A stretch of DNA of 64,000 bases from Pseudomonas sp. B21-056. GTDB taxonomy: Bacteria; Pseudomonadota; Gammaproteobacteria; Pseudomonadales; Pseudomonadaceae. Location of the stretch: NCBI RefSeq assembly GCF_026016325.1, contig NZ_CP087203.1:2542001-2606000 (forward strand). The letters run 5' to 3'. The notes under the pieces are model-generated. The model did no database searches. It saw only the letters and a program-made list of their open reading frames with translations, and had not been told where the DNA came from. Made by a program: the position numbers and the translations under genes. Within the stretch, counting starts at the first letter, position 1, and the number at the start of each line of letters is the position of its first letter. Below are positions 1,547 to 21,067 of the stretch, piece by piece.

Positions 1547-1570
1547 ATGAAAAACAATATTTTTTTTCAT
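1547..1570. promoter_or_regulatory. 24-bp dyad, candidate XRE-cupin operator (site A1)
   Basis: The site reads ATGAAAAA at the left and TTTTTCAT at the right with the arms 24 bases end to end, matching the pattern (A/G)TGAAAA-N10-TTTTCA(T/C) that recurs at 12511, 12557, 19874 and 20727. It lies in the promoter region of the DMSP-lyase-like gene and the chemoreceptor. The role as operator is inferred from symmetry, recurrence and position. Confidence 0.6.
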
Positions 1571-1592
1571 GATAAATCTTGATTTTTTTCAC
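1569..1592. promoter_or_regulatory. Second 24-bp dyad overlapping the first (site A2)
   Basis: ATGATAAA at the left and TTTTTCAC at the right, again 24 bases, with one arm position off consensus. It shares its first two bases with the last two of site A1, giving a 22-bp period, about two helical turns. The same overlapping layout is seen at 12511-12580, which argues against chance. Confidence 0.45.
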
Positions 1593-1653
1593 GGCTCGTT
1601 CCACAGTGGCTGCATAAAAATAAGGGCATACGTCCAGCCTTGAGGAAGGACTC

Positions 1654-1869
1654 ATGAAGTCTGATCTTCACCATCACCGCTGTACCTTTCCGATATGGAC
1701 AGATATCTCCTGTGCTTCGATCCAGCTACTGCCAAACTCAGGTAACCAGGCGTTATCGCTGATGATCGTTGTATTCCTGTCTAACTGCCTAACCGTGGTT
1801 TGTCCTTCAAGCGCACTCAATAAGCCGGGTCAAACCAGAACGTGGAACAAGATCAAAAACGGTAAATAA
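1654..1869 (+). CDS. Small hypothetical protein (71 aa), doubtful
   Basis: I do not recognise this protein. An AGGAAGGA motif three bases before the ATG gives it a plausible if rather close ribosome site, and residues about 33-50 form a hydrophobic stretch (ALSLMIVVFLSNCLTVVC) that could be a single membrane segment. It ends 15 bases before the DMSP-lyase-like gene and is in the same frame, so it could be a leader gene, a remnant of a longer N-terminus of that gene, or a chance open frame. Confidence 0.3.
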   Translation: MKSDLHHHRCTFPIWTDISCASIQLLPNSGNQALSLMIVVFLSNCLTVVCPSSALNKPGQTRTWNKIKNGK

Positions 1870-1884
1870 ACAGGGCCGAGCGCA

Positions 1885-2502
1885 ATGACGGTGGACTTAA
1901 ATTTCGAGTTGACGTGCCTGGTTGACCTTATTCATTCACATCTGTGCTCAACAGTTCCGGATGTTGCAACGCGGCTTCGTCTTGAAGAGTTAGACATATC
2001 CGTTAATGAGGCTGTTTTATGCAGGCCGGAGAGTCAATATTCAGCGATGGCCAAAGCTACTATTGAAACAGCCGGAAAAGAGCTTGCAGGTTCCTTTGAG
2101 AAGCTTGGGGCGATGGCGAGCTGCATTTCGATGATCGCCGATGCGTTAGAGTGGTATAAAAAACCGCTCTCGACGGAGTTGCCCGAATTCCAGGCCGGTC
2201 ACCTGAATGCAATCATCTTTGGCCGGAGTGGATTAGCGACGCTCGGCAACCTGACTCTTGGGGTAACAGTTATGAGTCCACACATAACTTATCCTGAGCA
2301 TCACCATAGTCCTGAAGAACTGTACATTGCACTTTCGGAAAGTGAATGGTGGCAGCCTGAAAGCGGATGGCGCTCACCAGGCCTCGGCGGAACAGTTTAC
2401 AACACTGGTGACTTGCTGCACTCCATGCGCTCTGGAGCCCAACACCACCTGTCCCTCTGGTTTCTTTTCGGCGATATGCATTTCTTTTCCGGCGCAGTTT
2501 AG
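1885..2502 (+). CDS. DMSP-lyase-family cupin (DddQ/DddL-like)
   Basis: A 205-residue protein whose C-terminal half carries the cupin signature of dimethylsulfoniopropionate lyases: YPEHHHSPEELYIALS around residue 138, with the His-x-His, Glu and Tyr expected of the metal site, then DLLHSMRSG and LSLWFLFGDMHF in place of the second metal-binding strand. The length fits the DddQ/DddL group (about 200-230 residues). Known members cleave DMSP to acrylate and dimethyl sulfide; related cupins may act on other onium compounds. The helical N-terminus (residues 1-110) matches the alpha-helical cap of that group. It sits 30 bases before a chemoreceptor gene and behind operator-like dyads. Low GC compared with the flanks suggests acquisition. 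True substrate unknown. Confidence 0.75.
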   Translation: MTVDLNFELTCLVDLIHSHLCSTVPDVATRLRLEELDISVNEAVLCRPESQYSAMAKATIETAGKELAGSFEKLGAMASCISMIADALEWYKKPLSTELPEFQAGHLNAIIFGRSGLATLGNLTLGVTVMSPHITYPEHHHSPEELYIALSESEWWQPESGWRSPGLGGTVYNTGDLLHSMRSGAQHHLSLWFLFGDMHFFSGAV

Positions 2503-2532
2503 CGCCCTGTTGGTTGATTAGGTGGAGTTCAA

Positions 2533-4665
2533 ATGAAGTTCAAGTCCATTCAGCATTCCGTCGCGATGCTGGCCGGGGTCAGTGTACTTGCGGTTGTCGC
2601 CGCATTGGTTATGTACGCAATACACGCTGGCTCCAAAACGCAAAGTCTGGTGCAAACTCGCGCTGAAAGCCTTCTGGAAAAGGTGATAGAAGATCGCCTA
2701 AGGTCGTTAGCGGTCGCAAAGGTCGCTCAAATACAAGGCGAACTGGCTTATCCAATGACGATTGCAAAAACAGTTGCTCTGGCCAATGCATCTTTGAGTA
2801 AAGCGAGGGAGCAGGGGGGCACCGATACCTCTGGGCTGCGAAAGGACATGGCCGAACTAACCCATGGCATTCTGCTGGACAATCCGAAGCTGATTGATCT
2901 CTACGCCGCTTGGGAGCCCGGAGCATTCGATCAAGACGCGCTTCATACCGATACGCCAGGCACCGATTCGTCCGGCAGATTTACGCCATGGTGGTATCGA
3001 GATGCCTCCGGCATTCCACAGCTTTCCACCCTCGGAGACGAACTCGAAAGTCAAAATCTTCTTACCGCCGGGGTGCGCGAGGGAGAGTATTACCTGTGCC
3101 CACGGGAAAGTTTGCAACCCTGTGCAATCGATCCTGCGTCATACGAAGTGGCGGGTAAGACTGTTTTGATGTCGAGCTTCAATGCCCCGATCATGGTGGA
3201 TAGTCATTTTCGAGGGGTGGCGGGGGCTAGTCTCTCGCTCGAGTTCATTCAGCGACTGATTGTCCAGGCAAACCAGGAGCTCTACGAGGGCGCTGGAGAG
3301 ATGGCGCTGTTATCCAGCAACCGTCGGGTTGTCGGTTTCAGTGCCGATGACAAGCATCTGGGTAGCCCAAGCCAGGAGGTACTCGGCACTCCCTTGCAGG
3401 GACTGGTCCAGGCATTGACCAACCACCAAAGCATATTCCAACTGGATCGCGATAACGGCCGTCTCTATTTGATAGTGCCCTTTAGTGTCGAAGGGGCCAA
3501 AGCCCCCTGGCTACTGACGCTCAACCTGCCCATGAACGTCGTCATGGCCGATATGCACAAGTTGGAAATCCAGTTGGGCGAGCAGCGCTCTGACGACATT
3601 TGGGGGATGAGTATCATTGGGCTGATTGTCTCGCTGGCGGGTATAGCCGTGATCTGGCTGATCAGTTTCGGCATTGCTCATCCCATGCGCCAGATGGTTG
3701 CCATGCTGGATGATATTGCTAAAGGCGAAGGCGATTTAACCCGACGCCTGGTTTCCGATAGAGGCGACGAACTGGGCGCGATCGCCAGTGGCTTCAATGC
3801 GTTTCTTTCAAAGCTCCAGTCGATGATTTCTCAGGTTGCATCGTCAGTCAGCGGTCTCAAGGAATCGTCCCGGAATACTGCAGGCATCGCCGCGGACACG
3901 AGTTCTGAAGTCCAGCGGCAACTTGCTGAAATAGAGTTGGTGGCGACTGCCGTTCACGAGATGACGGCTACAGCCCAGGATGTAGCCCGTAGCGCTACGA
4001 TGGCAGCACAGGCAGCCAGCCATGCTGATCATGCGGCTGAAGAAGGTAAACGGATCGTTCAATCCGCCGCTGATGCAAGCTTGCAGCTCGCTCAGGAGAT
4101 GCAGCGGGCCGTCGCAGTTGTTGAACTGCTGGCCGGTGAGAGCGAGAGCATAAGTGCCATTCTGGTAACCATCAGTGGTATCGCCGAGCAGACGAATCTG
4201 CTCGCCCTGAACGCAGCCATCGAGGCCGCTCGGGCAGGCGATCAAGGCCGCGGTTTTGCGGTAGTAGCCGATGAGGTCAGGCAGCTTGCGCAGCGCACAC
4301 GGCAAGCCACTGATGAGATACAACTGATGATTTCTCAGTTGCAGCAGGGAACACAGCAGGTGGTCCAAGTCATGCAGCAAAGCCAGAATCGGACTGAGTC
4401 CAGTCTGCAGCAGGCCGATGAAGCCAAAAATGCCCTGCAAACCATCGCTCAGGCTGTTTCAGTCATCAGCGATATGAATGCTCAAATCGCCAGTGCTGCA
4501 GAAGAGCAAAGTGCTGTAGCAGAAGACATCAACCGGAATATCACGAGCATCGGGCTCGTTGCGAGTGGTGTCGTAGGGAATGCTGATGAGGTCGCTCAGG
4601 CAAGCGTAGAACTGTCGGCGCTGGCGGAAAAACAGCACAGTCTCATGGGGGGCTTCAAGGTCTGA
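2533..4665 (+). CDS. Methyl-accepting chemotaxis protein, dCache type
   Basis: A 710-residue chemoreceptor. Order: membrane segment at about 9-31; periplasmic double-Cache sensor to about 352; second membrane segment about 357-379 ([20 protein letters not shown]); HAMP to about 432; and the signalling coiled coil, whose hairpin tip reads [20 protein letters not shown] from residue 547 or so. No C-terminal CheR-docking pentapeptide. It starts at the ATG behind GGTGGAG and only 30 bases after the DMSP-lyase-like cupin, so the two are probably co-transcribed and may sense and use the same or related compound. The receptor at 41013 has the same architecture and shared sensor motifs, so the pair are paralogues. 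Confidence 0.95.
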
Positions 4666-4723
4666 GGTCAGTTTTTCCGAGTTTGAGCCCCGTCATTTCC
4701 AGCCCCAGGTCTGTCCCCGCTGG

Positions 4724-5565: not shown

Positions 5566-6456
5566 TCAGACCTGCGCAGCAGCCACCGCCCGACGGACTT
5601 CCGGCTGCTTCCAGGAATCGGCAGCACTTTCCTCGATGGCTTGCTGGATCGCCCGCTTGCGGTTTTCTTCGGCGCGGCGGCTGAAGTACCAGACCAGGAA
5701 GGTCACCAGCGACACCGCCAGCAGGATCAGGCTCGCCACGGCGTTGATCTCCGGCTTCACGCCCAGGCGCACCGCCGAGAACACTTCCATCGGCAGGGTC
5801 GTCGAGCCCGGGCCCGAGACGAAGCTCGCCAGCACCAGGTCGTCCAAGGACAACGCGAACGACATCATGCCCCCGGCCGCCAGCGACGGCGCGATCATCG
5901 GGATGGTGATCAGGATGAACACCTTCCACGGCCGCGCACCGAGGTCCATGGCCGCCTCTTCGATGGACAGGTCCAGCTCACGCAAGCGTGACGAAACCAC
6001 CACCGCCACATAGGCCGCGCAGAACGTGGTGTGGGCGATCCAGATCGTGACGATGCCACGCTCCTGGGGCCAGCCGATCATCTGCGCCATGGCCACGAAC
6101 AGCAGCAACAGCGACAGACCGGTGATCACTTCCGGCATCACCAGCGGCGCGGTGACCAGGCCGCCGAACAGCGTGCGTCCTTTGAAGCGGGTGATGCGGG
6201 TCAGCACGAAGGCCGCCAGCGTACCCAGGGCCACCGCGGCCACCGCCGTGTAGCAGGCGATTTCCAGCGAACGCAGCACCGAGCCCATCAGTTGGCTGTT
6301 GTCCAGCAGGCCGACGTACCACTTGACCGACCAACCGCCCCACACCGTCACCAGTTTCGAGGCGTTGAACGAGTAGATCACCAGGATCACCATTGGCGCG
6401 TAGATGAACAGCAATCCCAGCACCAGCATCAGGCTTGAAAAACTGAAGCGCTTCAT
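5566..6456 (-). CDS. potI: Polyamine ABC transporter permease, PotI/PotC type
   Basis: A 296-residue inner-membrane permease with six predicted membrane segments and the permease EAA loop EEAAMDLGARPWKVFILITI, which contacts the ATPase. It is the second of two permeases in a PotG-PotH-PotI order; in Pseudomonas the corresponding genes are called spuF-spuG-spuH. The start overlaps the stop of the PotH gene (ATGA), with GGAGGGCAAGGA before it, so the two are translationally coupled. Together the set imports putrescine, spermidine or a related amine. The partner binding protein is not adjacent here; the likely one is at 15187. Confidence 0.92.
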   Translation of the reverse strand: MKRFSFSSLMLVLGLLFIYAPMVILVIYSFNASKLVTVWGGWSVKWYVGLLDNSQLMGSVLRSLEIACYTAVAAVALGTLAAFVLTRITRFKGRTLFGGLVTAPLVMPEVITGLSLLLLFVAMAQMIGWPQERGIVTIWIAHTTFCAAYVAVVVSSRLRELDLSIEEAAMDLGARPWKVFILITIPMIAPSLAAGGMMSFALSLDDLVLASFVSGPGSTTLPMEVFSAVRLGVKPEINAVASLILLAVSLVTFLVWYFSRRAEENRKRAIQQAIEESAADSWKQPEVRRAVAAAQV

Positions 6457-7373
6457 TCCTTGCCCTCCATTTCTTTGGCCTGACTGCGGTTGAACAGGAT
6501 GATCGGCACGATCAGGATCGCCAGCATCACCACCGCCAGGGCGGACGCCACCGGCCAGTCACGGTTATTGAAGAATTCCTGCCACAGCACTTTACCGATC
6601 ATCAGGGTTTCCGGACCGCCGAGCAGTTCCGGGATCACGAACTCGCCCACCACCGGAATGAATACCAGCATGCAGCCGGCGATGATGCCGTTCTTGGACA
6701 GCGGCACGGTGATTTTCCAGAAGCTGTTGAACGTGCTCGAACCCAGGTCGGAGGCGGCCTCCAGCAGGCTGGCGTCATGTTTGACCAGGTTGGCGTACAG
6801 CGGCAGGATCATGAACGGCAGGTAGGAGTAGACCACGCCGATATAGACCGCCAGGTTGGTGTTGAGGATCTGCAGCGGTTCGCTGATCCAGCCCATGCTC
6901 ATCAGGAAACCATTGAGCAGACCGTTGTTGCTGAGGATGCCCATCCACGCGTAGACGCGGATCAGGATCGCGGTCCAGGTCGGCATCATGATCAGCAGCA
7001 CCAGCACCGTCTGCGTCTCTTTGCGGGCATTGGCGATGGCGTAGGCCATCGGGTAACCGATCAGCAGGCACAGCGCGGTGCTGATCAGGGCCATCTTCAA
7101 CGAGCCCAGGTAAGCGGCGATGTACAGCTCATCCTCGCTGAGCATCGCGTAGTTGGCGAAGTTGAGCAGCACCTGCAGCTTCTGGTCGACGTAGCTGTAG
7201 ATCTCGGTGTACGGCGGAATGGCCACGTCGGCTTCGGCGAAGCTGATCTTCAGGACGATGAAGAACGGCAGCATGAAGAACAGGAACAGCCAGATGAAGG
7301 GCACCCCGATGACCAGTTGACGGCCACCGGGCGTTATTCGATCGAGTCGGCGTTTGAATTTGCGCATGTTCAT
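6453..7373 (-). CDS. potH: Polyamine ABC transporter permease, PotH/PotB type
   Basis: A 306-residue permease with six membrane segments, the first near residues 20-45 (IGVPFIWLFLFFMLPFFIVL), and an EAA loop LEAASDLGSSTFNSFWKITV. I chose the ATG at 7373 because it overlaps the stop of the ATPase gene as ATGA; a longer upstream reading would extend into that gene. The C-terminus overlaps the PotI-like gene by four bases. This is the first permease of the amine importer. Confidence 0.92.
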   Translation of the reverse strand: MNMRKFKRRLDRITPGGRQLVIGVPFIWLFLFFMLPFFIVLKISFAEADVAIPPYTEIYSYVDQKLQVLLNFANYAMLSEDELYIAAYLGSLKMALISTALCLLIGYPMAYAIANARKETQTVLVLLIMMPTWTAILIRVYAWMGILSNNGLLNGFLMSMGWISEPLQILNTNLAVYIGVVYSYLPFMILPLYANLVKHDASLLEAASDLGSSTFNSFWKITVPLSKNGIIAGCMLVFIPVVGEFVIPELLGGPETLMIGKVLWQEFFNNRDWPVASALAVVMLAILIVPIILFNRSQAKEMEGKE

Positions 7374-8524
7374 GAGCGAAGCACCACGCCGCTGTCGTCT
7401 TCCCACCAGACGAACACCTGGTCGCCCCAGGTCGGCCGCTGGCCACGGCGCTCGGCGTTGGCGACGAAGGACTGCACCAGCTTGCCGCTCGGCAGCTCGA
7501 CGTAGAACACCGAATGCCCACCCAGGTAGGCAATGTCATGGACCTTGCCGCTGGACCAGTTGTGCTCACAGGTCGGCTGCTCGACGGTCACCAGCAGTTT
7601 TTCCGGGCGAATGGCGTAGGTCACCGACTTGTCCTGCACCGAGGTGCTGATGCCGTGGCCCACGTAGATGTTGCGGTCCAGGTCCTTGCAGGTCAGCACC
7701 GCGTGGCCTTCGGCGTCGTCCACCACTTCGGTCTCGAAGATGTTGACGTTGCCGATGAACTCGCAGACCAGTCGGCTGGTCGGGGTTTCGTAGATGTCGA
7801 TCGGGCTGCCGATCTGGGCGATCCAGCCCAGGTGCATGATCGCGATGCGCTCGGCCATGGTCATGGCCTCTTCCTGGTCGTGGGTCACCATGACGCAGGT
7901 GACGCCGACCCGCTCGATGATCTCGACCAGCTCAAGCTGCATTTGCGAGCGCAGCTTCTTGTCCAGGGCACCCATCGGCTCGTCGAGCAGCAACAGCTTC
8001 GGACGCTTGGCCAGCGAACGGGCCAGGGCCACGCGCTGGCGCTGGCCGCCGGAGAGCTGGTGCGGCTTGCGCTTGGCGTACTGGCTCATCTGCACCAGCT
8101 TGAGCATCTCGGCCACGCGGGCGTCGATGTCGGCCTTGGGGATCTTGTCCTGCTGCAGGCCGAAGGCGATGTTCTGCGCCACGGTCATGTGCGGGAACAA
8201 GGCGTAGGACTGGAACATCATGTTGATCGGCCGCTCATAGGGCGGCATGTCGGTGATGTCCTCGCCGTCGAGGAAAATCCGCCCCTCCGTGGGCCGCTCG
8301 AAGCCGGCAAGCATGCGCAGCAACGTGGATTTGCCCGAACCCGAACCGCCGAGCAAGGCGAAGATCTCGCCTTTTTTGATCTCCAGGGACACATCGTCCA
8401 CGGCAATCGTCTCGTCGAACTTCTTCGTGACCCGGTCGATTTTGACCAGCACCTGCTTGGGTGTCTGGTCGCCCTCGAGGGCTTTCTTATAGGCATTCTT
8501 ATTGGCACTGGAGGCTACGTTCAT
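7370..8524 (-). CDS. potG: Polyamine ABC transporter ATP-binding protein, PotG/PotA type
   Basis: A 384-residue ATPase. Walker A is GGSGSGKST near residue 60, the signature is LSGGQRQRVALARSLA near 160, and Walker B is LLLLDEPMGALD. The C-terminal 120 residues form the OB-like regulatory domain of the PotA/MalK group (TOBE). It is the first gene of a three-gene unit with four-base overlaps. GGGAG lies about 12 bases upstream of the ATG. A 267-base gap separates it from the cupin gene upstream on the same strand, so it may have its own promoter or be read through from the puuB operon. Confidence 0.95.
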   Translation of the reverse strand: MNVASSANKNAYKKALEGDQTPKQVLVKIDRVTKKFDETIAVDDVSLEIKKGEIFALLGGSGSGKSTLLRMLAGFERPTEGRIFLDGEDITDMPPYERPINMMFQSYALFPHMTVAQNIAFGLQQDKIPKADIDARVAEMLKLVQMSQYAKRKPHQLSGGQRQRVALARSLAKRPKLLLLDEPMGALDKKLRSQMQLELVEIIERVGVTCVMVTHDQEEAMTMAERIAIMHLGWIAQIGSPIDIYETPTSRLVCEFIGNVNIFETEVVDDAEGHAVLTCKDLDRNIYVGHGISTSVQDKSVTYAIRPEKLLVTVEQPTCEHNWSSGKVHDIAYLGGHSVFYVELPSGKLVQSFVANAERRGQRPTWGDQVFVWWEDDSGVVLRS

Positions 8525-8791: not shown

Positions 8792-9157
8792 TTAATCTTC
8801 AATGGTTATGTAGTATTTCTTCAGGGGCTCATCGATCGCCCAGGTGATTCTGCTGTTCTTGCGCAGGACGAATCCATCGCCGGCCTGGAATGTTTCCGTA
8901 TGCCCCGTGACATCATCGACAATGGATGCCTTGCCCTCGATCAACAGGCAAATTTCGTTGCTCGTCTGTTCAACCTTTAAAATGCAGGGTTCACACTGCC
9001 AGATGCCGGTGCGGATGGTAGCGATTCCACTCGTAGCCGTCTCGAAGACCACTGAGCCGGCATGCACGGGGTTATTGCGGATCGCCACATTGGCGTCAAA
9101 GTCTGGCCAGCGAGACAGTCCTTGTTGTGTGCTTATCCTGATGACGGCGTTATTCAT
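8792..9157 (-). CDS. Small cupin protein (DUF861/cupin_3 type)
   Basis: A 121-residue single-domain cupin. The barrel strands are visible: a WQCEPCILKVEQTSNEICLL segment, then IEGKASIVDDVTG and FQAGDGFVLRKN, the pattern of the cupin_3 family found with EutQ and ureidoglycine enzymes. It lies about 100 bases downstream of the PuuA-like gene on the same strand, so it is probably in that operon. The usual His-rich metal motif is weak (no HxH), so it may bind a small molecule without metal or be a metal-free enzyme. Similar small cupins are at 19317 and 22522. Function unknown. Confidence 0.7.
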   Translation of the reverse strand: MNNAVIRISTQQGLSRWPDFDANVAIRNNPVHAGSVVFETATSGIATIRTGIWQCEPCILKVEQTSNEICLLIEGKASIVDDVTGHTETFQAGDGFVLRKNSRITWAIDEPLKKYYITIED

Positions 9158-9257: not shown

Positions 9258-10604
9258 TTATAGATACCATCGATATTCCCGGGCACTGATGTCTTGCATG
9301 AAGGCGAGGTGATCTTGACGCTTGTTTTCACAATAGACGTTGACGAACTCTGCGCCCAAGGCAGTTTGCAAGTCAGGATTGCTTTGCATCCCGTCAAGTG
9401 ATGCGAGCATGTCCAAGGGGAACTCAACGCCACTGTTTCGATCGGTATTGACGGGCGCGATAGGTTCACGCCGGGCTTCCAACCCATGCTCGATGCCAGC
9501 CAGAATGGCTGCCAGAACCAGATAGGGATTAGCGTCAGCCCCGGCCAGACGATGCTCAATACGACGGTTATGTGGATCCGAGTCGGGAATCCTTAGCGAG
9601 GCATCACGACTTTCCATACCCCAGCTCGCCCGATTGGCGATATTGACTGACCCGCCAAAGCGGCGTAACGCATTTATATTCGGCGCGAAAACAGGCATGC
9701 AACCAGGCAGCAGCTCAAGGCAACCCGCAACCGCATGCCCAAGTGACCGCTGGTCATCGTCCGCCAGCAGATTCAAACCCGCCTCGTCATACACGCTCAC
9801 GTGCACATGCATGCCACTTCCCGGGTGCTGCAGGTAGGGCTTGGCCATGAAACTGGCGCGATAACCGTGTTTAAGCGCCACGCCTCGGGTACTGCGGCAG
9901 AACAGGGCGGCCCAGTCGGCGGCACGCAGGCCATCGTCGAGATGACCGAAATTGATCTCGAATTGGCCAGGGCCATGCTCGGCGGTAATGACAGTGGCAT
10001 CAACGCCTTGTGAACGAGCCGCTTCCACCATCTCACCCAATACCGGGGCGAAGCGGGATAGCCGGTCGATGTGCATGTTGGGTTGATCATCCGCATCATT
10101 GCACAGCTGATCGCGCGGATACTGTGGATGCCCATCTCGCAGATGCTTATCGAAAAGATAGAATTCCAACTCGAATGCCACCACCGGATGAATGCCTTTG
10201 CCACGAAGCCGTTCGAGTACCCTTGCCAGCACTTCCCTCGGCTCGAATACGATCGGCGCTGCAGTACCGTCAGAAGTGATCAGCATCTGGCCCAGTGGTT
10301 GCGCTTCCCAACTGACGACTTTCAGGGTGCCGGGTACCAAGCGACGTTCTGCATCAGGGTCGCCATCTTTGAAAAAATAATCGCCAATTTCATAGACACC
10401 ACCCTGCAGACCTAGCTGTATGCAGTTTTGAGGTAGTTTAAGAGAGCCTCCTGCCGCCACTTTTTCCAGCATGTCCATTGGGTATCGCTTACCGTAGAAA
10501 TGGCCGGGTATATCGAGGCAAATCAAATCGACGTAGCGAATGTCAGGATGATGTAATCGAAAATCTCTGATTTCAGTCATCAGGTCAGGGTAGGGGGACG
10601 TCAT
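9258..10604 (-). CDS. Glutamine-synthetase-like gamma-glutamylpolyamine synthetase (PuuA type)
   Basis: A 448-residue type I glutamine-synthetase homologue. The active-site blocks are in order: VVAFELEFYLFD, TAEHGPGQFEINFGH, PGSGMHVHVSVYD, NRASWGMESRDASLRIP and GADANPYLVLAAIL. Family members of this branch (PuuA, and SpuI/PauA in Pseudomonas) attach glutamate to an amine with ATP instead of ammonia. Neighbouring PuuB-like oxidase, XRE-cupin regulator and Pot transporter support that role. The ATG at 10604 follows AGAGGAAT; a longer upstream reading overlaps the regulator gene and is not convincing. Exact amine unknown. No PuuD-like gamma-glutamyl hydrolase is in the window. Confidence 0.88.
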   Translation of the reverse strand: MTSPYPDLMTEIRDFRLHHPDIRYVDLICLDIPGHFYGKRYPMDMLEKVAAGGSLKLPQNCIQLGLQGGVYEIGDYFFKDGDPDAERRLVPGTLKVVSWEAQPLGQMLITSDGTAAPIVFEPREVLARVLERLRGKGIHPVVAFELEFYLFDKHLRDGHPQYPRDQLCNDADDQPNMHIDRLSRFAPVLGEMVEAARSQGVDATVITAEHGPGQFEINFGHLDDGLRAADWAALFCRSTRGVALKHGYRASFMAKPYLQHPGSGMHVHVSVYDEAGLNLLADDDQRSLGHAVAGCLELLPGCMPVFAPNINALRRFGGSVNIANRASWGMESRDASLRIPDSDPHNRRIEHRLAGADANPYLVLAAILAGIEHGLEARREPIAPVNTDRNSGVEFPLDMLASLDGMQSNPDLQTALGAEFVNVYCENKRQDHLAFMQDISAREYRWYL

Positions 10605-10632: not shown

Positions 10633-11190
10633 TTATGTATAAATCCAAAGGATTCGGGTCGTGCTCTTGCTTGAGTTGCAATAGCGGCATTGTGTCCGGC
10701 TGGGAAGCTGGAAAGTATCGCCAACCTGCAAGACGATCTGTTCTTCGCTGATACCAAGTAGCAGTGTCAGCTCACCCTCCAAAACATAACCCCCTTGCTC
10801 TGAGCTATCACTTAACTGCCGCTCACCGCTGCTGGCTCCTGGTTGCAGGGTCGTTTCGAGCATAGAGAACGCTGCAGTCATAGTCGGTGAAAGCAAAATA
10901 TCGGAGATGCCGTTAGCGTAATGAAGGGTGCGGCGTTCATAGGGACGCGTCACCCATGGCGATTCCTGTGGCAGTGAGTCGTTGAAGAAATAGGTCGTGG
11001 GCACCCCAAGGGTTTCGCTGATTGCCGTGAGATCGGCGACCGTCGGCTGGGAAAGTCCTCTTTCTATCTGAGAAACAAAACCCACCGAGCGACCGATGCA
11101 TCTGGCAAGATCTTCCAGTGTGTACTTCTTGTGCTTGCGCAGTTCGTGGATGCGCCTTGGCAGATCGGGAATCTCGGCTTGTTTATCCAT
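10633..11190 (-). CDS. XRE-family regulator with C-terminal cupin (PuuR type), first copy
   Basis: A 185-residue regulator: XRE helix-turn-helix (about 8-65) with recognition segment GRSVGFVSQIERGLSQPTVA, then a cupin sensor (about 105-180; GGYVLEGELTLLL, GDTFQLPSRTQCRY). PuuR and its Pseudomonas relatives repress amine-catabolic genes until the amine or a product binds. The ATG at 11190 follows GAGAGAA; the reading that overlaps the upstream gene would need a TTG. It sits between the PuuB-like and PuuA-like genes in one operon, so it is probably autoregulated through the dyads at 12511-12580. Its recognition helix is nearly identical to those of the copies at 12663 and 20040. Confidence 0.92.
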   Translation of the reverse strand: MDKQAEIPDLPRRIHELRKHKKYTLEDLARCIGRSVGFVSQIERGLSQPTVADLTAISETLGVPTTYFFNDSLPQESPWVTRPYERRTLHYANGISDILLSPTMTAAFSMLETTLQPGASSGERQLSDSSEQGGYVLEGELTLLLGISEEQIVLQVGDTFQLPSRTQCRYCNSSKSTTRILWIYT

Positions 11191-11210
11191 GACAAGTTCT
11201 CTCGCAACGT

Positions 11211-12500
11211 TCAAAGCACGTCCCGCAGCCGATACCAGGTCTTGCCGATTGCTTCGATAGGTGCAGCCAAAGCCTTACCACCCGGAAAGTTCCTGTTGTA
11301 CAAACCTTGGTATAGCGTGAGGTCATCCTTGTCCCCCAAGATGGCATTTGAAACCGCACGCGCAGCCGCCAGGGTCGGCAGCACACCGTGTCCCGAGTAG
11401 CCCTGCATCCAATAAAGCTGACCACTTTTGCCGATGTCGGGTGTGCGGTTGAATGTCAAATCGAGATGACCGCCCCAGGCAAACTCGATAGGTACTTTTC
11501 CAAGTTGTGGGAATACGCGCTCAAGGAAAGGCCTTGTCGCCGCGGCGATATCCTTCGGCAACCCGCCGAGATAAGTTGTACCGCCGCCAAAGAGCAAGCG
11601 GTTGTCTGGAGTCAGACGGAAGTAATCGAGAATAAATTGATTGTCGGTGACGCAAACATTCGAGGGTATCAACGACGCTGCTACTGCTTTCGGCAGCGGA
11701 GCGGTCGCCACCTGATAGCTGCCTGCCGAGAGCACCCGGCGCGATAGCTTGGGGCAGAGCTCATCCAGATACGCGTTGCATGCCAGGACCAGTACGTCTG
11801 CCTGGATCCGCCCTCGTTCTGTCAAGACGACGTAGTGCCCATCTTCTTCACGGAAACTCAGTGCCTTGCTTCGTTCGTGAATCGAACCTCCGGCTTGTTC
11901 AATGGCGTCAGCCAGGCCCAGGGCAAGTTTGAGCGGATTCAAATGACCGCCTTCAGGATCGAGCAACCCGGCTTGGTATCGATCACTGGCAACCCAGTCA
12001 GGCAAGTTCTGTCGTGAGATGAACTTCAAGCCGTCGTGGCCCCACTTGTGGCTCGCCTCCTGCTGCCAATCCGTGAGCATGCTGACCCGTCGTTTCAGCA
12101 CGGATGTCCAGAGATGACCGGGGCGATAGTCGATATCAAAACCCTGGCGAACAGGGAGCTCGCGTATCTCCCGTGCAGCCCAGCGCATGCTGTCCCACAG
12201 CCTTCGCGCACGTTCGTAACCCAGTGCCGCTTCAAGCGGTGGCATATCACATGACCACCCAAGAATGGCCTGTCCTCCGTTTCTTCCAGAAGCTGCCCAG
12301 GCCACCCGACTGGCTTCCAGAACGGTCACCCGCTTGCCCGCCAGTGCCAAGCGCAACGCGGTATGCAGGCCGCTGAAGCCTGCACCAATAACGACGACCT
12401 CACTGCTTTGGTCGCCTTCAAGCGCGGGACGAAGCGTTAGTCTGTCGGAGCAGCTATGGGCGTAGTAGCTGGAAACGTGGTCGGTTGACTGGCAAAACAT
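11211..12500 (-). CDS. FAD-dependent amine oxidase, PuuB type (first copy)
   Basis: A 429-residue flavoprotein of the DAO family. The FAD-binding loop is VVIGAGFSGLHTALRLALAG near residue 35; then ASGRNGGQAILGWS, and near the C-terminus WGGHLDLTFNRTPDIG and GYSGHGVLPTLAAARAV. This matches gamma-glutamylputrescine oxidase and its relatives, which oxidise the free amino group of the glutamylated amine to an aldehyde with peroxide. I chose the ATG at 12500, with GGAGAG before it; a start at 12512 lies inside an operator dyad and has no ribosome site. First gene of the operon running to PuuA and the small cupin. Confidence 0.9.
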   Translation of the reverse strand: MFCQSTDHVSSYYAHSCSDRLTLRPALEGDQSSEVVVIGAGFSGLHTALRLALAGKRVTVLEASRVAWAASGRNGGQAILGWSCDMPPLEAALGYERARRLWDSMRWAAREIRELPVRQGFDIDYRPGHLWTSVLKRRVSMLTDWQQEASHKWGHDGLKFISRQNLPDWVASDRYQAGLLDPEGGHLNPLKLALGLADAIEQAGGSIHERSKALSFREEDGHYVVLTERGRIQADVLVLACNAYLDELCPKLSRRVLSAGSYQVATAPLPKAVAASLIPSNVCVTDNQFILDYFRLTPDNRLLFGGGTTYLGGLPKDIAAATRPFLERVFPQLGKVPIEFAWGGHLDLTFNRTPDIGKSGQLYWMQGYSGHGVLPTLAAARAVSNAILGDKDDLTLYQGLYNRNFPGGKALAAPIEAIGKTWYRLRDVL

Positions 12501-12510
12501 GGGGCTCTCC

Positions 12511-12534
12511 ATGAAAATACTTTATAATTTTCAT
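12511..12534. promoter_or_regulatory. 24-bp dyad, candidate XRE-cupin operator (site B1)
   Basis: ATGAAAAT and ATTTTCAT form perfect 8-base arms around an 8-base centre. The left edge abuts the ribosome site of the PuuB-like gene, so occupancy should block transcription start or early elongation of that operon. It is the first of three overlapping dyads. Confidence 0.7.
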
Positions 12535-12558
12535 GAAAATATAGGCGGCGCTTTTCAT
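12533..12558. promoter_or_regulatory. Middle dyad of the array, 26-bp variant (site B2)
   Basis: ATGAAAA at the left and TTTTCAT at the right, but 26 bases end to end instead of 24. It shares two bases with the sites on either side, so four TGAAAA/TTTTCA half-site clusters are evenly spread. The two-base extension may change the affinity or simply reflect juxtaposition of neighbouring sites. Confidence 0.4.
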
Positions 12559-12580
12559 GAAAACAAGCAATATTTTTCAT
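12557..12580. promoter_or_regulatory. 24-bp dyad, candidate XRE-cupin operator (site C)
   Basis: ATGAAAA and TTTTCAT arms, 24 bases end to end. It is the copy of the array closest to the divergent regulator gene at 12663, so it may control both the PuuB operon and that regulator. Confidence 0.65.
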
Positions 12581-12662
12581 GCTGAGCGACACAACCCTCT
12601 TGATGCGGCTTGGGGGCAGGTTGCATCAAGGCTCCTGGGACGTTCAGCCTTTTTGAAGTTTC

Positions 12663-13256
12663 ATGCCGAATATGGATAATCGTGCTCCCATTTTCAGGTT
12701 TCCAACTGTGAACAATTCCAACGCTACCGTTTTGGCTGACATCATCCGCGACCTGCGAAAGCGTAAGAGAATGACAGTTCGTCAGTTGGCCTCTGCGATC
12801 GACAGGTCTACCGGGTTCATTTCTCAAATTGAGCGTGGTCTGTCACAGCCGACCGTTGAAGATTTGACAGCGATAGCGGCTGCCATGGGGGTGTCGATCG
12901 AGATCTTCGCGCAACCTGCCAAGCAGCCGCTGCAGCGATGGGTCACCCAACCAGACGAGCGCCGATCGCTTCGGTACGCTCGCGGGGTGACGGATTTTGT
13001 CGTCTCGCCGAGTCTCTCTGGAAAGATGGTGATGTTCGAGACCCATCTCGAGCCGGGTGCTGACTTTGGTGAGCGAGGCATCACCGAGGATTCGGAGCAA
13101 TGCGGATATGTGCTCGAGGGTGAGTTGACCATCTGGGTCGGCGATGAGGTGCTCACCATCGGTGCGAAGGGGGGGTTCCAAATCCCCGGTGGCATCCCTT
13201 GCCGTTACGCCAATCGAAGTTCCTCCATGACGCGTGTGGTGTTGATCTACAGCTAG
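12663..13256 (+). CDS. XRE-family regulator with C-terminal cupin (PuuR type), second copy
   Basis: A 197-residue regulator of the same plan as the one at 10633: XRE domain about 22-80 with DRSTGFISQIERGLSQPTVE as recognition segment, then a cupin sensor with CGYVLEGELTIWVGDEVLTI and GGFQIPGGIPCRY. It is divergent from the PuuB-like operon with the dyad array between them. The start is uncertain: the ATG at 12663 lacks a good ribosome site, while a GTG at 12708, just before the XRE domain, has AGG eight bases upstream. Likely represses the divergent operon or its own gene. Confidence 0.9.
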   Translation: MPNMDNRAPIFRFPTVNNSNATVLADIIRDLRKRKRMTVRQLASAIDRSTGFISQIERGLSQPTVEDLTAIAAAMGVSIEIFAQPAKQPLQRWVTQPDERRSLRYARGVTDFVVSPSLSGKMVMFETHLEPGADFGERGITEDSEQCGYVLEGELTIWVGDEVLTIGAKGGFQIPGGIPCRYANRSSSMTRVVLIYS

Positions 13257-13843
13257 TCCGCCAGGACTCATCGTAAGTCGCTGGCTTCGCCTCGTCGCCG
13301 CGCTGGCACTCGCTCGAATGCCTGCTCATCACCGAATGCTCTATCCGCTCAACGCGAATGCGTGAGTCACCCTTTCGCCTGCGCCTGTTGCACGCTCTGG
13401 CAGCGAAAGAGGTGCCTTGCATCGATCCCTTTGCTCACTGAACTCCTCATGTTTTCGTACCAAACTCCCTCGTTGCGTCGGCACGGTGATCCCTCAGGAC
13501 CCTGTCCCGCTGGCGCTTGAGCCCCGTCATACGTCCGCGCAGGGCCCTAATGAAGCTCAAAAGAAAATTTTGCCACATGAACAAAAGTGTCATATTGTTC
13601 ATGTGGCTCGACCTAGCGGACAGGTCGGACCCGGCAATTCACAGGGCAGGGGGGGCGTTTTTTTAGAAGGCAATCGTAATGTCGCCTGTCAGGCTCCAGT
13701 GTTAACTAATACATGCGCTTGAGAGAGGCGACATGGAATACGTTTATTCTCCAAGTTTATGCGCGGACGCGAGTTCACGAAGCACTGCCCTATAAATGCT
13801 TAAAGCTACTGCCCATCAGATGGTGACCCTATAGAGATTCGTC
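13257..13843. other. Intergenic with a long palindrome; possible 20-codon leader ORF
   Basis: This 587-base gap holds the 36-bp palindrome at 13572-13607. Further on, 13733-13795 encodes a 20-residue reading frame (MEYVYSPSLCADASSRSTAL) behind GAGAGGCG, which could be a leader peptide or chance. The first 300 bases show no gene and no strong terminator. Confidence 0.4.
13572..13607. promoter_or_regulatory. 36-bp perfect-arm palindrome, candidate operator (site D)
   Basis: Arms GCCACATGAACAA and TTGTTCATGTGGC are perfect over 13 bases with a 10-base centre. The inner ATGAAC/GTTCAT halves resemble the TGAAAA dyads but the end-to-end distance is 26, not 24. It lies about 240 bases before the second PuuB-like oxidase and its binding protein, so it is a good candidate operator, perhaps for one of the three XRE-cupin paralogues or for a regulator outside the window. 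Confidence 0.6.
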
Positions 13844-15133
13844 ATGACCGCTTTTTTTAATTTTTACGAAACCACCGTACAGCGCAGACATTATGAAAAG
13901 TTGATCGGAGAACAGCAAACAGAGGTATGCATTGTTGGCGGCGGAGTCGCTGGAGTGAGTACCGCTCTGCGTTTGGCCGAGGAGGGGGTTTCTTGCGTTT
14001 TACTTGAAGCAGATAAAATCGGTTGCTGCGCCTCCGGCATGAACGGAGGTCAAATAATTCGCGGGTTTGCCCCTCGCTTGGCAGATATTGAAGCCAGCCA
14101 CGGCATGGCATTATCCACCAAGCTATTCAAGTTGGCCGCAGTGGGAGTGGATCGGGTATTCAGCAATGTAAGTCGTTATGGGATTTCATGTGACGCGCAA
14201 CGTGGCCAGATTACTGCGGCGATCCGCCCGGCACACTATCGTGCTCTTCAAGATGAAGCCGACCATTTGGCCCGAAATTACAACTACATCAATCTGCAGT
14301 TACTCGATACCGATGCGTTAACGGCCTATGTCACTTCACCTGCCTATTATGGTGGGCTCCGTGACCCACGCGGCGGGAAACTCAATCCATTGGCATATAC
14401 GATTGGCCTCGCTGAGGCAGCGGAAAATATAGGCGCCAAGCTTTATGAATACAGTCGCGTGGAAGGCATGCGACAACAGTCCGGTCGATGGGAAGTTGCA
14501 ACGGCCGAAGGCAAGGTTATTGCTGATCGGGTAGTCGTGGCCTGCAATGCATTTACCGGTGATTTGGAAAGGCAGCTTGCCCCAGCAGTGCTTAAGGTCG
14601 GAACCTATCAGTTGATTACCCGCCCATTGCGACAGGAGGAGGCTGCGTTGATTGGTGAAGAACCGATATTTGATACGCATCCGTTCAATCACTACTTTCG
14701 CAAGAGCACAGATAATCGTCTGCTGTTCGGCTGTTCGATCGGTACCACACAGAGTCCACGACAAGCTGATCTGCGGCACATACGCAAAGAGCTGACCAAA
14801 ATATTCCCCCGGTTGGCAGCTATCGAAGTCGATTATATTTGGGGTGGCTGGCTGGATGTAACCGTCAATCAGTTGCCTGATATCAGAGAACGTAAAGACG
14901 GGCGTCTGGTACTGCAAGGGTTCAATGGCCATGGCATGAACTGCGCAAGTATGGCTGCCGATCTGGCTGTAGAAAAACTGCTTGGCTGCCCCAGGAATTT
15001 TGATGTTTTTGCCGCCATCAAACACCGCACCATACCCGGATTACCTTGGAGTCGACTGCCGCTGACTTGGGCAGGGCACCTGCAATATTACCTAAAAGCC
15101 CGTATGGCGGGTGATCGCTCGGACTTTGTCTAG
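13844..15133 (+). CDS. FAD-dependent amine oxidase, PuuB type (second copy)
   Basis: A 429-residue flavoprotein of the same family as the copy at 11211 but clearly diverged. FAD loop VCIVGGGVAGVSTALRLAEE near residue 30, ASGMNGGQIIRGFAP, DPRGGKLNPLAYTIGLAEAA, and C-terminal WGGWLDVTVNQLPDI and GFNGHGMNCASMAAD. Predicted to oxidise a primary amine or its glutamyl derivative to the aldehyde. It precedes a polyamine-type binding protein by 53 bases on the same strand. Two oxidases in one cluster suggest two oxidation steps or two substrates. Confidence 0.88.
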   Translation: MTAFFNFYETTVQRRHYEKLIGEQQTEVCIVGGGVAGVSTALRLAEEGVSCVLLEADKIGCCASGMNGGQIIRGFAPRLADIEASHGMALSTKLFKLAAVGVDRVFSNVSRYGISCDAQRGQITAAIRPAHYRALQDEADHLARNYNYINLQLLDTDALTAYVTSPAYYGGLRDPRGGKLNPLAYTIGLAEAAENIGAKLYEYSRVEGMRQQSGRWEVATAEGKVIADRVVVACNAFTGDLERQLAPAVLKVGTYQLITRPLRQEEAALIGEEPIFDTHPFNHYFRKSTDNRLLFGCSIGTTQSPRQADLRHIRKELTKIFPRLAAIEVDYIWGGWLDVTVNQLPDIRERKDGRLVLQGFNGHGMNCASMAADLAVEKLLGCPRNFDVFAAIKHRTIPGLPWSRLPLTWAGHLQYYLKARMAGDRSDFV

Positions 15134-15165
15134 GTATAAGTTCCCCCGTCCAACACACACACTGA

Positions 15166-16287
<1,122 letters not shown>

Positions 16288-16296
16288 TGGTGCCAG

Positions 16297-16331
16297 TTGA
16301 CCTATGAGGTCAATCGCAACTCATAGGTCAA
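16297..16331. terminator. Perfect 12-bp inverted repeat after the binding-protein gene
   Basis: TTGACCTATGAG and CTCATAGGTCAA with an 11-base loop, ten bases after the stop codon. There is no T-run after the stem, so it may stabilise the mRNA end or act as a protein site rather than as an intrinsic terminator. Confidence 0.4.
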
Positions 16332-16433
16332 GTGCTCAATCCCTTCTTGCAGGGCATTCACTGGTGTCGCTGAGCAAACTGCAAATTCGGTAGTTTGAAT
16401 CAGACGCACGTCCCTGGCTGTTCACTGGCTTGA

Positions 16434-17245: not shown

Positions 17246-17304
17246 GTGAATACCATTTTTATTTTTTTAGTGATAGGCAAGTGTTTGGTTGATGCCCGTG
17301 CCAA

Positions 17305-18972: not shown

Positions 18973-19316
18973 TGTTTTTCCTCTCATGGTTGTGCTGCAA
19001 CTTTATTGTTTTATGCTCGCTTTTAACGCTTAACCAAGGCGCAGCGACGCCTGGATGCAGGCTCTCATCCTGAAGAGTGTGAGTTTTCCGTCAGTTGGTA
19101 TTAGCAGTCTTGAAAGTGCTGTCGTTTAAGTTCTACCGTGTCCGGCATAGGTTTACCTGGACCAAGTTGAAAGGCCGGGCAAAGGGCGCGCAGCAAAGGA
19201 AGCTGACAAAGCTGTCCTCCTTTGAAGTAATTGACCAAGTAATAATTCATCTAATAAAGGTGAGCTACGCGCCACCGAATAGAGCCATTTGAGATCCGGA
19301 CTCCAAGGATAAATCG
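18973..19316. other. Intergenic, no recognised feature
   Basis: A 344-base gap between the esterase start and the stop of the small cupin gene. It should contain the esterase promoter. I see no operator dyad, gene or terminator in it. Confidence 0.4.
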
Positions 19317-19676
19317 TCAAGCTATGACGAAAAGCTTCTTAACGGTGCCTACGTTTTCCCAAACACCTGAAAAGCCAACAGGAATGACGAAGGACTCGCC
19401 TTCCTTGAACTCATCCATTCTGCCCTGTTCGTCGGTTAGTCGGACGATGCCCGACAGGATGTGGCAGAACTCGGTCTGTTCGGCATGAAATTGTTCTCGG
19501 CAAGCCTCAGCTTCCCATTGGCCCGACATGAAACCTTTCTGTTCATCCGAGTAGTGCATCCATGTCGTTGATGCGTACTGTCCCGATAACACCCCGGAAT
19601 GGTTGATAATGTCTTTCGCAGGAGTAACTTCAGAGTGGGTGAATCCAACAATACGATGCAGACACTTGTCGTTCAT
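19317..19676 (-). CDS. Small cupin protein (DUF861/cupin_3 type)
   Basis: A 119-residue single-domain cupin. Visible family features are GQWEAEACREQFHAEQTEFC, then HILSGIVRLTDEQG and FKEGESFVIPVGFSGVWE, the cupin_3 pattern with the conserved FxxGxxFxIPxGxxGxW block. It is divergent from the regulator at 20040. It resembles the cupins at 8792 and 22522 in fold but not closely in sequence. The role is unknown; members of this group have been assigned isomerase or small-molecule-binding functions. Confidence 0.75.
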   Translation of the reverse strand: MNDKCLHRIVGFTHSEVTPAKDIINHSGVLSGQYASTTWMHYSDEQKGFMSGQWEAEACREQFHAEQTEFCHILSGIVRLTDEQGRMDEFKEGESFVIPVGFSGVWENVGTVKKLFVIA

Positions 19677-20039
19677 TATTCTAATCTCACAAGTTCACAT
19701 TGTTTTTATCATGGCCAGGGCGGGTAGGCTTTTCTCAAGGCTTATCCTCAACCAGCCTTTGGCGCGGCAGTTGCCCTGCGCGTTGCTCCAACCCCGGTTC
19801 ATCCTGAGAGGGCTCCAGAAGATCGCTGAGCGAGACGTTCTACGCCCTCTGTGGGAGCACTGTGATACTCGCCGTGAAAAAAATCAACTATTTTCACGAA
19901 GTGCTTCGATCCTGTTTTCCTACCGGCACCGCTCGATACAGCGGTGCTATCAAGAACGGCCGTTGAGCAGGGATCAGGCTAGCTTGGGGGCACTGTTCCT
20001 CCCTATACTCGCCCCCAAATGCAAGCACTGGAGTAGCTG
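19677..20039. other. Divergent promoter region between a small cupin and an XRE-cupin regulator
   Basis: This 363-base gap contains the operator-like dyad at 19874-19897. No gene is convincing in it. The dyad is positioned to control either side. Confidence 0.5.
19874..19897. promoter_or_regulatory. 24-bp dyad, candidate XRE-cupin operator (site E)
   Basis: GTGAAAA and TTTTCAC arms, 24 bases end to end, extended by one more C/G pair on each side. It lies 142 bases before the regulator gene at 20040. Unlike the sites on the left it starts with G instead of A, as does the copy at 20727, which hints that this pair belongs to the adjacent regulator. Confidence 0.65.
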
Positions 20040-20588
20040 ATGAGCGATCACGTCGCAGGACTACGGATCAAATACCTGCGTAAAAAGAAAGGCCTTAGTC
20101 TTCAACAAGTTGCCGATACCATCGGCCGTTCCGTTGGGTTCGTGTCCCAGATCGAGCGTGGTCTTTCCCGCCCGAGCATTGAGGACATCGGTGCCATTGC
20201 AGAGCTGCTTGAGGTGGACTACCTGAGCTTCTTCACTGCCAAGAAGGAGCAGCTGGCAAACAGATTCATCGTCAAAAGGAGCGAGCGATCGGCGCTCGAT
20301 TATCGCGGTGGCATTTCGGACGAGTTGTTGTCACCCGACATCTCAGGGAAATTCCACATGCTCTTCACCGAGCTCGCGTCAGGTGCGAAGTCCAGTGACG
20401 ACATGATGAAGGACAGCGGTGAACAAGGGGGTTATGTCCTTGAAGGCGAGCTGGAATTGATGATTGATGGAGAGATCTTCAAGCTCGAGGCAGGGGACAG
20501 TTTCCAGTTCGTTTCCACGACCCCTCACAGCTATGTGAATACAGGGCGTGTTCCGACGAAGATCGTTTGGGTGTTTTCACAGCGGTAA
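20040..20588 (+). CDS. XRE-family regulator with C-terminal cupin (PuuR type), third copy
   Basis: A 182-residue regulator. XRE domain about 6-62 with GRSVGFVSQIERGLSRPSIE as recognition segment, nearly the same as in the two paralogues; cupin sensor about 105-180 with GGYVLEGELELMIDGEIFKL and GDSFQFVSTTPHSY. Ribosome site GGAG eight bases before the ATG. Operator-like dyads of the GTGAAAA type flank the gene (19874 and 20727), so it probably represses both itself and the aldehyde dehydrogenase operon that follows. Confidence 0.92.
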   Translation: MSDHVAGLRIKYLRKKKGLSLQQVADTIGRSVGFVSQIERGLSRPSIEDIGAIAELLEVDYLSFFTAKKEQLANRFIVKRSERSALDYRGGISDELLSPDISGKFHMLFTELASGAKSSDDMMKDSGEQGGYVLEGELELMIDGEIFKLEAGDSFQFVSTTPHSYVNTGRVPTKIVWVFSQR

Positions 20589-21067
20589 GCAGTACGTGGC
20601 GCCAAGCCGGAGCCGATTCGTTTCGCGCCGGGTGCCAAGGCTGTCCTTGGTGTTCTAGTAACCAATTGAATTTTAACGGAATTGTTCGATAGGCCAGACA
20701 TTCTGCGAAAAAGCCTTGCCTGCGCCGTGAAAAAATGTGTAAATTTTCACGGTGCTTCTCCTTGTTTTGACAATTTCATGCAGTTCTCTCGTGTGTGGCC
20801 ATGAACGTTGGTTTTCTCAATAGAAAAGTAACGCGGGCTATAAACGGTTAGAAGTACTGCAACGCTTGCCTGGGTGTTAACCCGACTAACACGCGAGACC
20901 GCCGCTCACAGGGGGGGCTTAGCCCGTCCTGAGCACAAGAATATATAAGTAATACCGCACGTCCTGATGCTTGATGTTAATTCGAGTGGCCCCAGCAGAT
21001 ATTCGCTGATTAAAGGGGAGGGCGTGGCTGTGCAAGTTTGACTTCATAATAAATACAGGTGGATTTT
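20589..21067. other. Long leader/promoter region of the PatD-like operon
   Basis: This 479-base gap contains the dyad at 20727-20750, more than 300 bases before the aldehyde dehydrogenase start. The remaining stretch has no recognised riboswitch or gene. Confidence 0.4.
20727..20750. promoter_or_regulatory. 24-bp dyad, candidate XRE-cupin operator (site F)
   Basis: GTGAAAA and TTTTCAC, 24 bases end to end, extended to 28 by CC and GG. It is the most symmetric copy and lies upstream of the PatD-like dehydrogenase, EutQ-like cupin and TMADH-like flavoprotein genes. Confidence 0.7.

Follow-up and report, generated by a model that had tools for sequence, protein, structure and literature searches.

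Near-identical inverted repeats as predicted operators of PA0535-type XRE-cupin repressors in an amine-catabolic gene cluster of Pseudomonas sp. B21-056

Introduction

Related repressors are known for keeping their targets separate, and three paralogous repressor-like regulators that stand side by side with nearly the same DNA site are therefore unusual. Such an arrangement is found in a 64,000-nucleotide stretch of the genome of Pseudomonas sp. B21-056 (contig NZ_CP087203.1, positions 2,542,001 to 2,606,000; hereafter the window), and it raises the question of what the sites are and which regulators they serve. A sequence-only reading had described a 24-bp dyad, RTGAAAA-N10-TTTTCAY, as the probable operator of three PuuR-type regulators of the XRE-cupin class. 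The analysis reported here leads to a modified answer: the dyads are, with high probability, predicted operators for dimers of PA0535-type XRE-cupin repressors of amine-catabolic operons. The dyads, the regulators (R1, R2, and R3), and the oxidoreductase encoded with R1 are as follows, with dyad lengths counted from TGAAA to TTTCA.

1547..1570, predicted operator dyad 1 of the left array, ATGAAAA-N10-TTTTCAT, length 22
1569..1592, predicted operator dyad 2 of the left array, one mismatch, half-site common with dyad 1
12511..12534, proximal dyad of the central array, length 22 (24 as a rule in relatives), adjoining the oxidoreductase start
12533..12558, middle dyad of the central array, N12, length 24 as in relatives
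12557..12580, third dyad of the central array, length 22, on the R2 side
13572..13607, variant dyad GCCACATGAACAA-N10-TTGTTCATGTGGC, candidate operator for gene 13844
19874..19897, single dyad GTGAAAA-N10-TTTTCAC between a divergent cupin gene and R3
20727..20750, single dyad upstream of an aldehyde dehydrogenase, 12-base arms 92% complementary
10633..11214, minus strand, R1, XRE-cupin regulator, PA0535-type
12663..13256, plus strand, R2, XRE-cupin paralogue, recognition helix RSTGFISQIERGLS
20040..20588, plus strand, R3, XRE-cupin paralogue, helix RSVGFVSQIERGLS
11211..12500, minus strand, FAD-dependent oxidoreductase (DAO family), start placed by eye

Distribution of the dyad in the window and in related genomes

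All five exact copies of RTGAAAA-N10-TTTTCAY that had been claimed are present (1547-1570, 12511-12534, 12557-12580, 19874-19897, and 20727-20750), and none of 100 dinucleotide shuffles of the window reached five (mean 0.00). The genome-wide search that had been proposed was run and located TGAAAA-N10-TTTTCA at five places in the 6,448,716-bp genome, all five inside a 19-kb stretch of the amine cluster; the same pattern read backwards, as a control, was found at no place in that genome. Among 198 Pseudomonadaceae genomes, a sample from a larger group, 14 carried the 24-bp pattern, with five copies in the genome of strain B21-056 and one copy, taken as background, in each of 13 others. The expectation that exact copies are confined to the amine cluster was thus borne out, both by the count in the genome itself and by the scan of the 197 other genomes of the family. 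Only exact copies are confined in this way and degenerate ones are common, since the pattern with up to two mismatches has 48 genomic matches, of which the window contains 7 (backwards pattern, 13). A relaxed pattern, RTGAAAW-N8-12-WTTTCAY, occurs at 11 places, 6 of which are in the cluster (reversed control, 6). All eight relaxed or one-mismatch matches outside the cluster were inspected; five lie within open frames and three outside frames, and the six frames that flank the latter gave a single Pfam match (AbiEi_2).

It could be argued that the dyads are AT-rich palindromes or hairpins that arose by chance and have no regulatory role, given that their A/T-rich seven-base arms are simple, that single exact copies turn up in 13 of 197 other genomes, and that two-mismatch copies are frequent in the genome itself. 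This is extremely improbable in view of the clustering of five of five exact copies within 19 kb of 6.45 Mb and of the conservation of the dyad at one position in 75 of 79 related loci (see below), and a chance origin was rejected on the shuffles, the genome-wide confinement, and the 197-genome background.

Two further copies had been described as weaker. That at 1569-1592 indeed carries one mismatch and shares a half-site with dyad 1, but that at 12533 is not weak: it has full arms around a 12-base spacer (ATGAAAATATAGGCGGCGCTTTTCAT, 12533-12558). The region 12511-12580 is therefore a single array of three dyads that share half-sites, with CATG boxes at 12510, 12532, 12556, and 12578 of the 12510-12581 array and lengths of 22, 24, and 22. 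The left site consists of two overlapping dyads and those at 19874 and 20727 of one dyad each; the arms at 20727 can be extended to 12 bases (GCGCCGTGAAAA/TTTTCACGGTGC). The copy at 12511 overlaps the longest frame of the 11211 gene; since that gene starts, as judged by eye, at 12500, after GGAGAG, the copy is intergenic, as had been stated. The dyad at 13572-13607 was missed in the sequence-only reading; its 13-base arms are perfect and in register with the operator but contain a C in the half-site (TGAACA). A compact TTTCATGAAA palindrome was also considered as the only unit and was rejected, since it is absent from the single sites at 19874 and 20727, though it is present in 74 of 79 upstream regions of relatives.

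The three regulators

R1, R2, and R3 all exceed the cut-offs for Pfam HTH_3 in the N-terminal part and Cupin_2 in the C-terminal part and are thus XRE-cupin regulators. They resemble PuuR of Escherichia coli in this architecture and in the amine theme, but their description as PuuR-type cannot be kept in a strict sense: scores against the NCBIfam PuuR equivalog NF007408 are 42.5, 44.3, and 73.7 bits, far below the cut-off of 211, and membership was rejected on these grounds. In a regulator tree (midpoint root, with a long-branch warning), R1 and R2 fall within one 19-row group with the regulator of Pseudomonas aeruginosa PA7 (locus L130; 100/99), which makes them PA0535-type, with R2 weakly placed inside that group (94/56). 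R3 pairs with a relative from genome G332 (98/90), and the two are joined to the PA0535-type group (99/92).

The recognition helix FVSQIERGLS is identical in R1 and R3, and R2 has T in place of V (RSTGF). The 79 helices from the 80 R1-relative loci described below comprise 70 of type FL/QV, five FL/QI, four FV/QV, and none FV/QI. These differences are conservative, and co-adaptation of the R1 helix and its operator is therefore a suggestion only. A search for R3 in 321 genomes of the class at E ≤ 1e-40 returned no genome besides its own, and a plasmid search with 10633-13256 returned five Burkholderia or Paraburkholderia records at 65-67%.

Conservation of the operator in relatives of R1

With R2 as the query against 115 relatives, matches were obtained in 47 others at E ≤ 1e-20, and 20 loci near 50% identity, which turned out to be of R1 type, were taken with 16-18 kb. 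At 19 of these 20 loci, TGAAA-N14-TTTCA is located at the start of the oxidoreductase-regulator operon or, where no oxidoreductase adjoins (L060, L065, and L066), at the start of the regulator gene; the remaining locus, L057, has no such dyad. Additionally, a named genome collection was scanned with an alignment of seven regulators, and the best 80 of at least 526 related stretches were used. These are mostly from Pseudomonas, with six from Paraburkholderia and five from metagenome bins, and include 3 of the 20 earlier loci. A TGAAA-N8-16-TTTCA dyad was found between -250 and +30 of the operon start at 75 of the 80 loci (one of them, L128, is a poor match at a locus in which no oxidoreductase was found). 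Spacing is nearly invariant: 137 of the 138 start-proximal dyads have length 24 and one has length 23. Elsewhere in the 80 loci there are 11 such dyads, and a control dyad, AAAGT/ACTTT, has 3 occurrences. When all 5-base dyads with spacers of 0-20 were compared, with no motif preset, in the 79 usable 150-base upstream regions, TGAAA-N14-TTTCA ranked first (75 of 79), mostly as overlapping dyads; it was missed at L128, L150, L166, and L176, the last three of which have near copies by eye.

One of these loci links the dyad to a characterized regulator. In strain PA7 (L130), an oxidoreductase 66% identical to that of the window is followed by a regulator 61-63% identical to R1, and gene order and identity, rather than an accession match, suggest that this pair corresponds to pauB1-PA0535. 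The relaxed pattern is found at two places in the PA7 genome, both in the array upstream of this pair, and the reversed control at none. In strain PAO1, PA0535 represses pauB1, with which it is predicted to form an operon, as its sole target, according to DNA affinity purification sequencing (DAP-seq), RNA sequencing, electrophoretic mobility shift assays, and reverse transcription quantitative PCR (PMC7901475). That study derives motifs for PsdR and PauR and cites one for ErfA, with none for PA0535; the dyad would provide a concrete operator for PA0535-type repressors, and it predicts targets in many pseudomonads. Another study reports 223 XRE motif clusters in a separate table, and its main text contains no TGAAA or TTTCA strings (PMC12565409). 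In the Paraburkholderia genome of L147, two of four relaxed matches are at the operon and the reversed control gives none.

The window and the PA0535/pauB1 system are alike in gene pair and order, in the half-site, and in the position of the site upstream of the operon. They differ in that PAO1 has one regulator with one target, whereas the window has three paralogues, several operons, and a spacing that is mostly 22 rather than 24. The central array is accordingly not the overlapping TGAAA-N14-TTTCA array typical of the PA0535 type, as two of its three dyads have length 22 and only the middle one has length 24. Half-sites and place are the same and only the spacing is altered, and the array therefore belongs to the same operator family with an altered geometry.

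Relatives of R3 and control loci

Among 249 genomes of the genus, the best match to R3 after its own genome is in G332 (65%), followed by one at 48%. Two overlapping TGAAAA-N11-TTTTCA dyads (length 23) lie between the R3 relative of G332 and an old-yellow-enzyme (OYE) gene, in a divergent promoter, and a third is situated 13 kb away between genes for a Rieske-type oxygenase and an acyl-CoA dehydrogenase, the latter followed by Pot-type transporter genes. An R1 relative (69%) is also encoded in G332, and the dyad at the oxidoreductase of that locus has length 24; within one genome, R1-type and R3-type operators thus have different spacings but a common half-site. It had been suggested that ATGAAAA and GTGAAAA copies reflect a preference of individual paralogues. 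The relatives do not support this: in 62 arrays from the 80 R1-relative loci the outer bases are mixed (left G 33, A 28, T 1; right T 34, C 28), and at the R3 relative in G332 two of the three dyads have ATG and the third GTG.

As a control, 19 more distant XRE-cupin loci were examined, 17 of which have the helix TAGYISQLERN. Full-arm dyads are absent from all 17 (the one match at L113 is partial and 1.3 kb distant), and the best dyad shared by their regulators, CCCTGG-N7, was found at 9 of 17. The other two control loci do carry dyads, three of length 22-23 at L108 (RSVGYLSQVERG) and one of length 23 at L109 (LSVGYISQLERD); the latter is weak evidence because reversed matches outnumber forward ones in its genome.

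A more distant XRE-cupin locus, L225 (G256), has four dyads of length 22-23 over 14 kb, at 3192, 15751, 16025, and 17113, which precede a DAO/GCV_T enzyme, an aminotransferase, the regulator itself, and a solute-binding protein, respectively. This is perhaps another local regulon of several operons.

Weighing the operator assignment

Several observations weigh against the assignment of the dyads to these regulators. The relative loci are related to one another, and the locus counts are therefore not independent. The relaxed pattern is less frequent than its reverse in the Pseudomonas fluorescens genome of L170 (5, two of them at the operon, against 11) and in G264 (4 against 9), so that single relaxed matches mean little. 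In the tree, the dyad-bearing regulators of L108 and L109 group with the 17 dyad-less ones, which implies that the half-site tracks the helix and not a single clean clade. Spacing is mostly 22 in the window, 24 in the relatives of R1, and 23 in that of R3. Scans for sigma-70 consensus sequences and terminators over the sites found no promoter overlapping them; the sole promoter-like match, 12653-12680, is outside the sites. XRE-cupins of P. aeruginosa share no targets and all but PauR are local (PMC7901475). None of the 16 loci of DMSP-lyase-like relatives (L092-L107, identity ≤44%; see below) has the dyad upstream of that gene.

On the other side stand the half-sites conserved at loci related to R1, the agreement of the PA7 locus with the DAP-seq results, the G332 relative of R3, and the dyad-less control loci. 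For these reasons the sites are very probably operators of PA0535-type XRE-cupin regulators, and not of PuuR; the earlier proposal that these XRE-cupin proteins use the dyads as operators is supported to that extent.

Proposed mechanism and genes under predicted control

In the proposed mechanism, two half-sites, RTGAAA(A), would face each other, with half-sites shared within arrays, and regulators at amine-catabolic promoters would probably bar RNA polymerase, with release once an amine or an intermediate is detected by the cupin domain. Binding, repression, and an inducer are all expected for the window on this model. For XRE-cupins, repression at the core promoter is published, and release by a metabolite of the pathway has been reported for certain members and suggested for the others (PMC7901475). 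PauR and PsdR of P. aeruginosa are similar in domain order, in dimer binding to palindromes, in mostly core-promoter sites, and in a role in amine or peptide catabolism; the consensus sequences of PauR, PsdR, and ErfA are called quite different from each other (PMC7901475). DbuR of Pseudomonas putida is likewise an XRE-cupin repressor, with a 44-bp footprint over a palindrome and a predicted -10 box, but it differs in the sequence of its palindrome, AATTCTCATATATTAGAATT, and acts on D-branched-chain amino acid genes (PMC12724383). Near-identical operators would serve the R1 operon and R2, the cupin gene and R3, the aldehyde dehydrogenase, and the dimethylsulfoniopropionate (DMSP)-lyase-like and chemoreceptor genes. 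Apart from the last two, the genes concerned and their neighbors are as follows.

5566..6456, minus strand, PotI-like permease of a polyamine ATP-binding cassette transporter (399 bits, cut-off 476)
6453..7406, minus strand, PotH-like permease (450.7 bits, cut-off 489)
7370..8524, minus strand, PotG/PotA-like ATPase (polyamine ATPase subfamily, 426.4 bits, cut-off 355.6)
8792..9157, minus strand, EutQ-like cupin
9258..10604, minus strand, glutamine-synthetase-like ligase (start by eye, open frame to 10757)
13844..15133, plus strand, second DAO-family oxidoreductase (best NCBIfam model L-pipecolate oxidase, below cut-off)
15187..16287, plus strand, solute-binding protein
19317..19676, minus strand, EutQ-like cupin (50% identity to the cupin after the OYE gene behind the R3-type operator of G332)
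21059..22492, plus strand, aldehyde dehydrogenase (aminobutyraldehyde dehydrogenase subfamily model 799.6 bits, cut-off 615; equivalog missed, 818.9 against 909.3)
22522..22866, plus strand, EutQ-like cupin
22902..24863, plus strand, OYE/FAD oxidoreductase

The ligase scores best against the NCBIfam models for type III glutamate--ammonia ligase and gamma-glutamylputrescine synthetase, in each case below the cut-off. Relatives of the OYE protein (69-75% identity) in 17 loci (L110-L126) adjoin an XRE-cupin of another helix type without the dyad. The OYE gene in the window is apparently under a different type of regulator, because these 17 relatives adjoin the TAGYISQLERN type.

Spacing and the separation of paralogues

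Whether R1, R2, and R3 bind one set of sites or each its own is a separate matter. It has a little less than an even chance, in our estimation, that each regulator binds only the sites by its own gene, that the likeness of the sites reflects common ancestry, and that spacing and flanks insulate the paralogues, as in the local regulons of P. aeruginosa. The XRE-cupins of that species other than PauR are local and have no targets in common (PMC7901475), the R1-type operator of G332 has length 24 and its three R3-type dyads length 23 within that one genome, and the TGAACA variant upstream of the second oxidoreductase, a candidate for R2's own operator, accompanies the changed helix of R2. Against such insulation, the length of 22 is common to the R1, R3, and left sites of the window, and the helix shared by R1 and R3 is a combination that occurs in none of the 79 helices of R1 relatives.

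The proximal dyad of R1 is two bases shorter than those of its relatives, and the left, R3, and aldehyde-dehydrogenase sites likewise have a spacing of 22. R1, R2, and R3 may all bind one set of sites. It is conceivable, though doubtful, that normally insulated repressors have merged here: R1 would have gained the R3 helix and its operator would have gone from 24 to 22. Three sensors, each with a different cupin domain, could then act on one operator set and integrate several amine signals over catabolism, transport, and chemotaxis, and spacer length (24, 23, or 22) with a constant half-site could act as a code that separates or joins paralogues. With a constant half-site and variable spacing, the cluster is a natural setting in which to study how paralogous repressors remain separate or become merged. 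At locus L066 (G253), two R1-type regulators at 7765 and 12193, 4.4 kb apart, each have dyads upstream, with lengths of 24 and 23; this locus is a second natural case of paralogues with a common half-site.

The left array and its neighbors

Three features adjoin the left array.

1654..1869, plus strand, possible 71-amino acid leader open frame (putative coding), after the left array and ahead of the DMSP-lyase-like gene
1885..2502, plus strand, cupin, Pfam DMSP_lyase
2533..4665, plus strand, chemoreceptor with a sensor domain nearest PctD among solved chains

The pair at 1885-4665 may be controlled by the left array, a reading that follows from position and from the possible leader frame. The array is well placed upstream of the 1885 gene, with 292 bases to the annotated gene; the leader frame begins 61 bases downstream of the array and stops 15 bases short of the cupin gene. 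The cupin surpasses the gathering score of Pfam PF16867 (96.7 against 27 bits) and is a putative lyase; its nearest solved chains are at E 0.007-0.009, and it has no NCBIfam match. Relatives at E ≤ 1e-15 were found in 15 of 248 other genomes of the genus, at ≤44% identity over part of the protein, and none was found among the 27 pattern matches of the genome-collection scan, from which the genome of B21-056 itself may have been excluded.

The solved chain nearest to the chemoreceptor's sensor domain is PctD of P. aeruginosa, a choline/acetylcholine receptor (E 1e-89); the Pfam dCache_1 score is 21.1 bits, below the cut-off of 45. The motif positions of PctD are R103, D133, W155, F188, Y189, M215, S217, and D235, and replacement of D235 by alanine cut choline binding 162-fold (PMC10104139). 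In the alignment with PctD, read by hand, six of the eight residues of this dCache_1AM amine motif are kept (R, D, W, Y189, M, and S), with Y at F188 and S at D235. An amine ligand is thus plausible, though the motif rule does not predict one. The serine-for-aspartate receptor adjoins the DMSP-lyase-like cupin, and a sulfonium or other non-amine ligand is conceivable.

History of the cluster

At three loci with an AraC relative of >80% identity, the AraC gene and the oxidoreductase operon run in the same direction. At L187 the AraC gene is followed directly by the array and the operon, and at L136 and L183 3 to 5 kb lie between. In the window, the left array comes after AraC; the oxidoreductase operon lies ~8-11 kb away, in the opposite orientation to AraC and with other genes between. 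The 1547-1592 array could, on this comparison, be the ancestral operator of the oxidoreductase-R1 operon, left stranded by the inversion and no longer controlling anything, and the 292 bases to the annotated gene would agree with that. Such an origin is unlikely, given that both arms of the first dyad match exactly, an outcome that decay would not favor, that its spacing is the window's 22 and not the relatives' 24, and that the 71-amino acid frame spans most of the gap to the cupin gene.

G+C content in 1.5-kb bins is 50-57% over most of 1.5-25.5 kb, 59-61% at 4.5-7.5 kb with 57.5% in the next bin, and 62% at 30-64 kb. This profile, together with the arrangement of AraC and operon, fits accretion around an ancestral R1 locus, and the three paralogues within one 25-kb cluster were probably assembled around an ancestral oxidoreductase-R1-ligase operon. 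A separate inverted repeat at 16294-16334, after the solute-binding protein gene, has 15-base arms that are 93% complementary with 11 bases between them.

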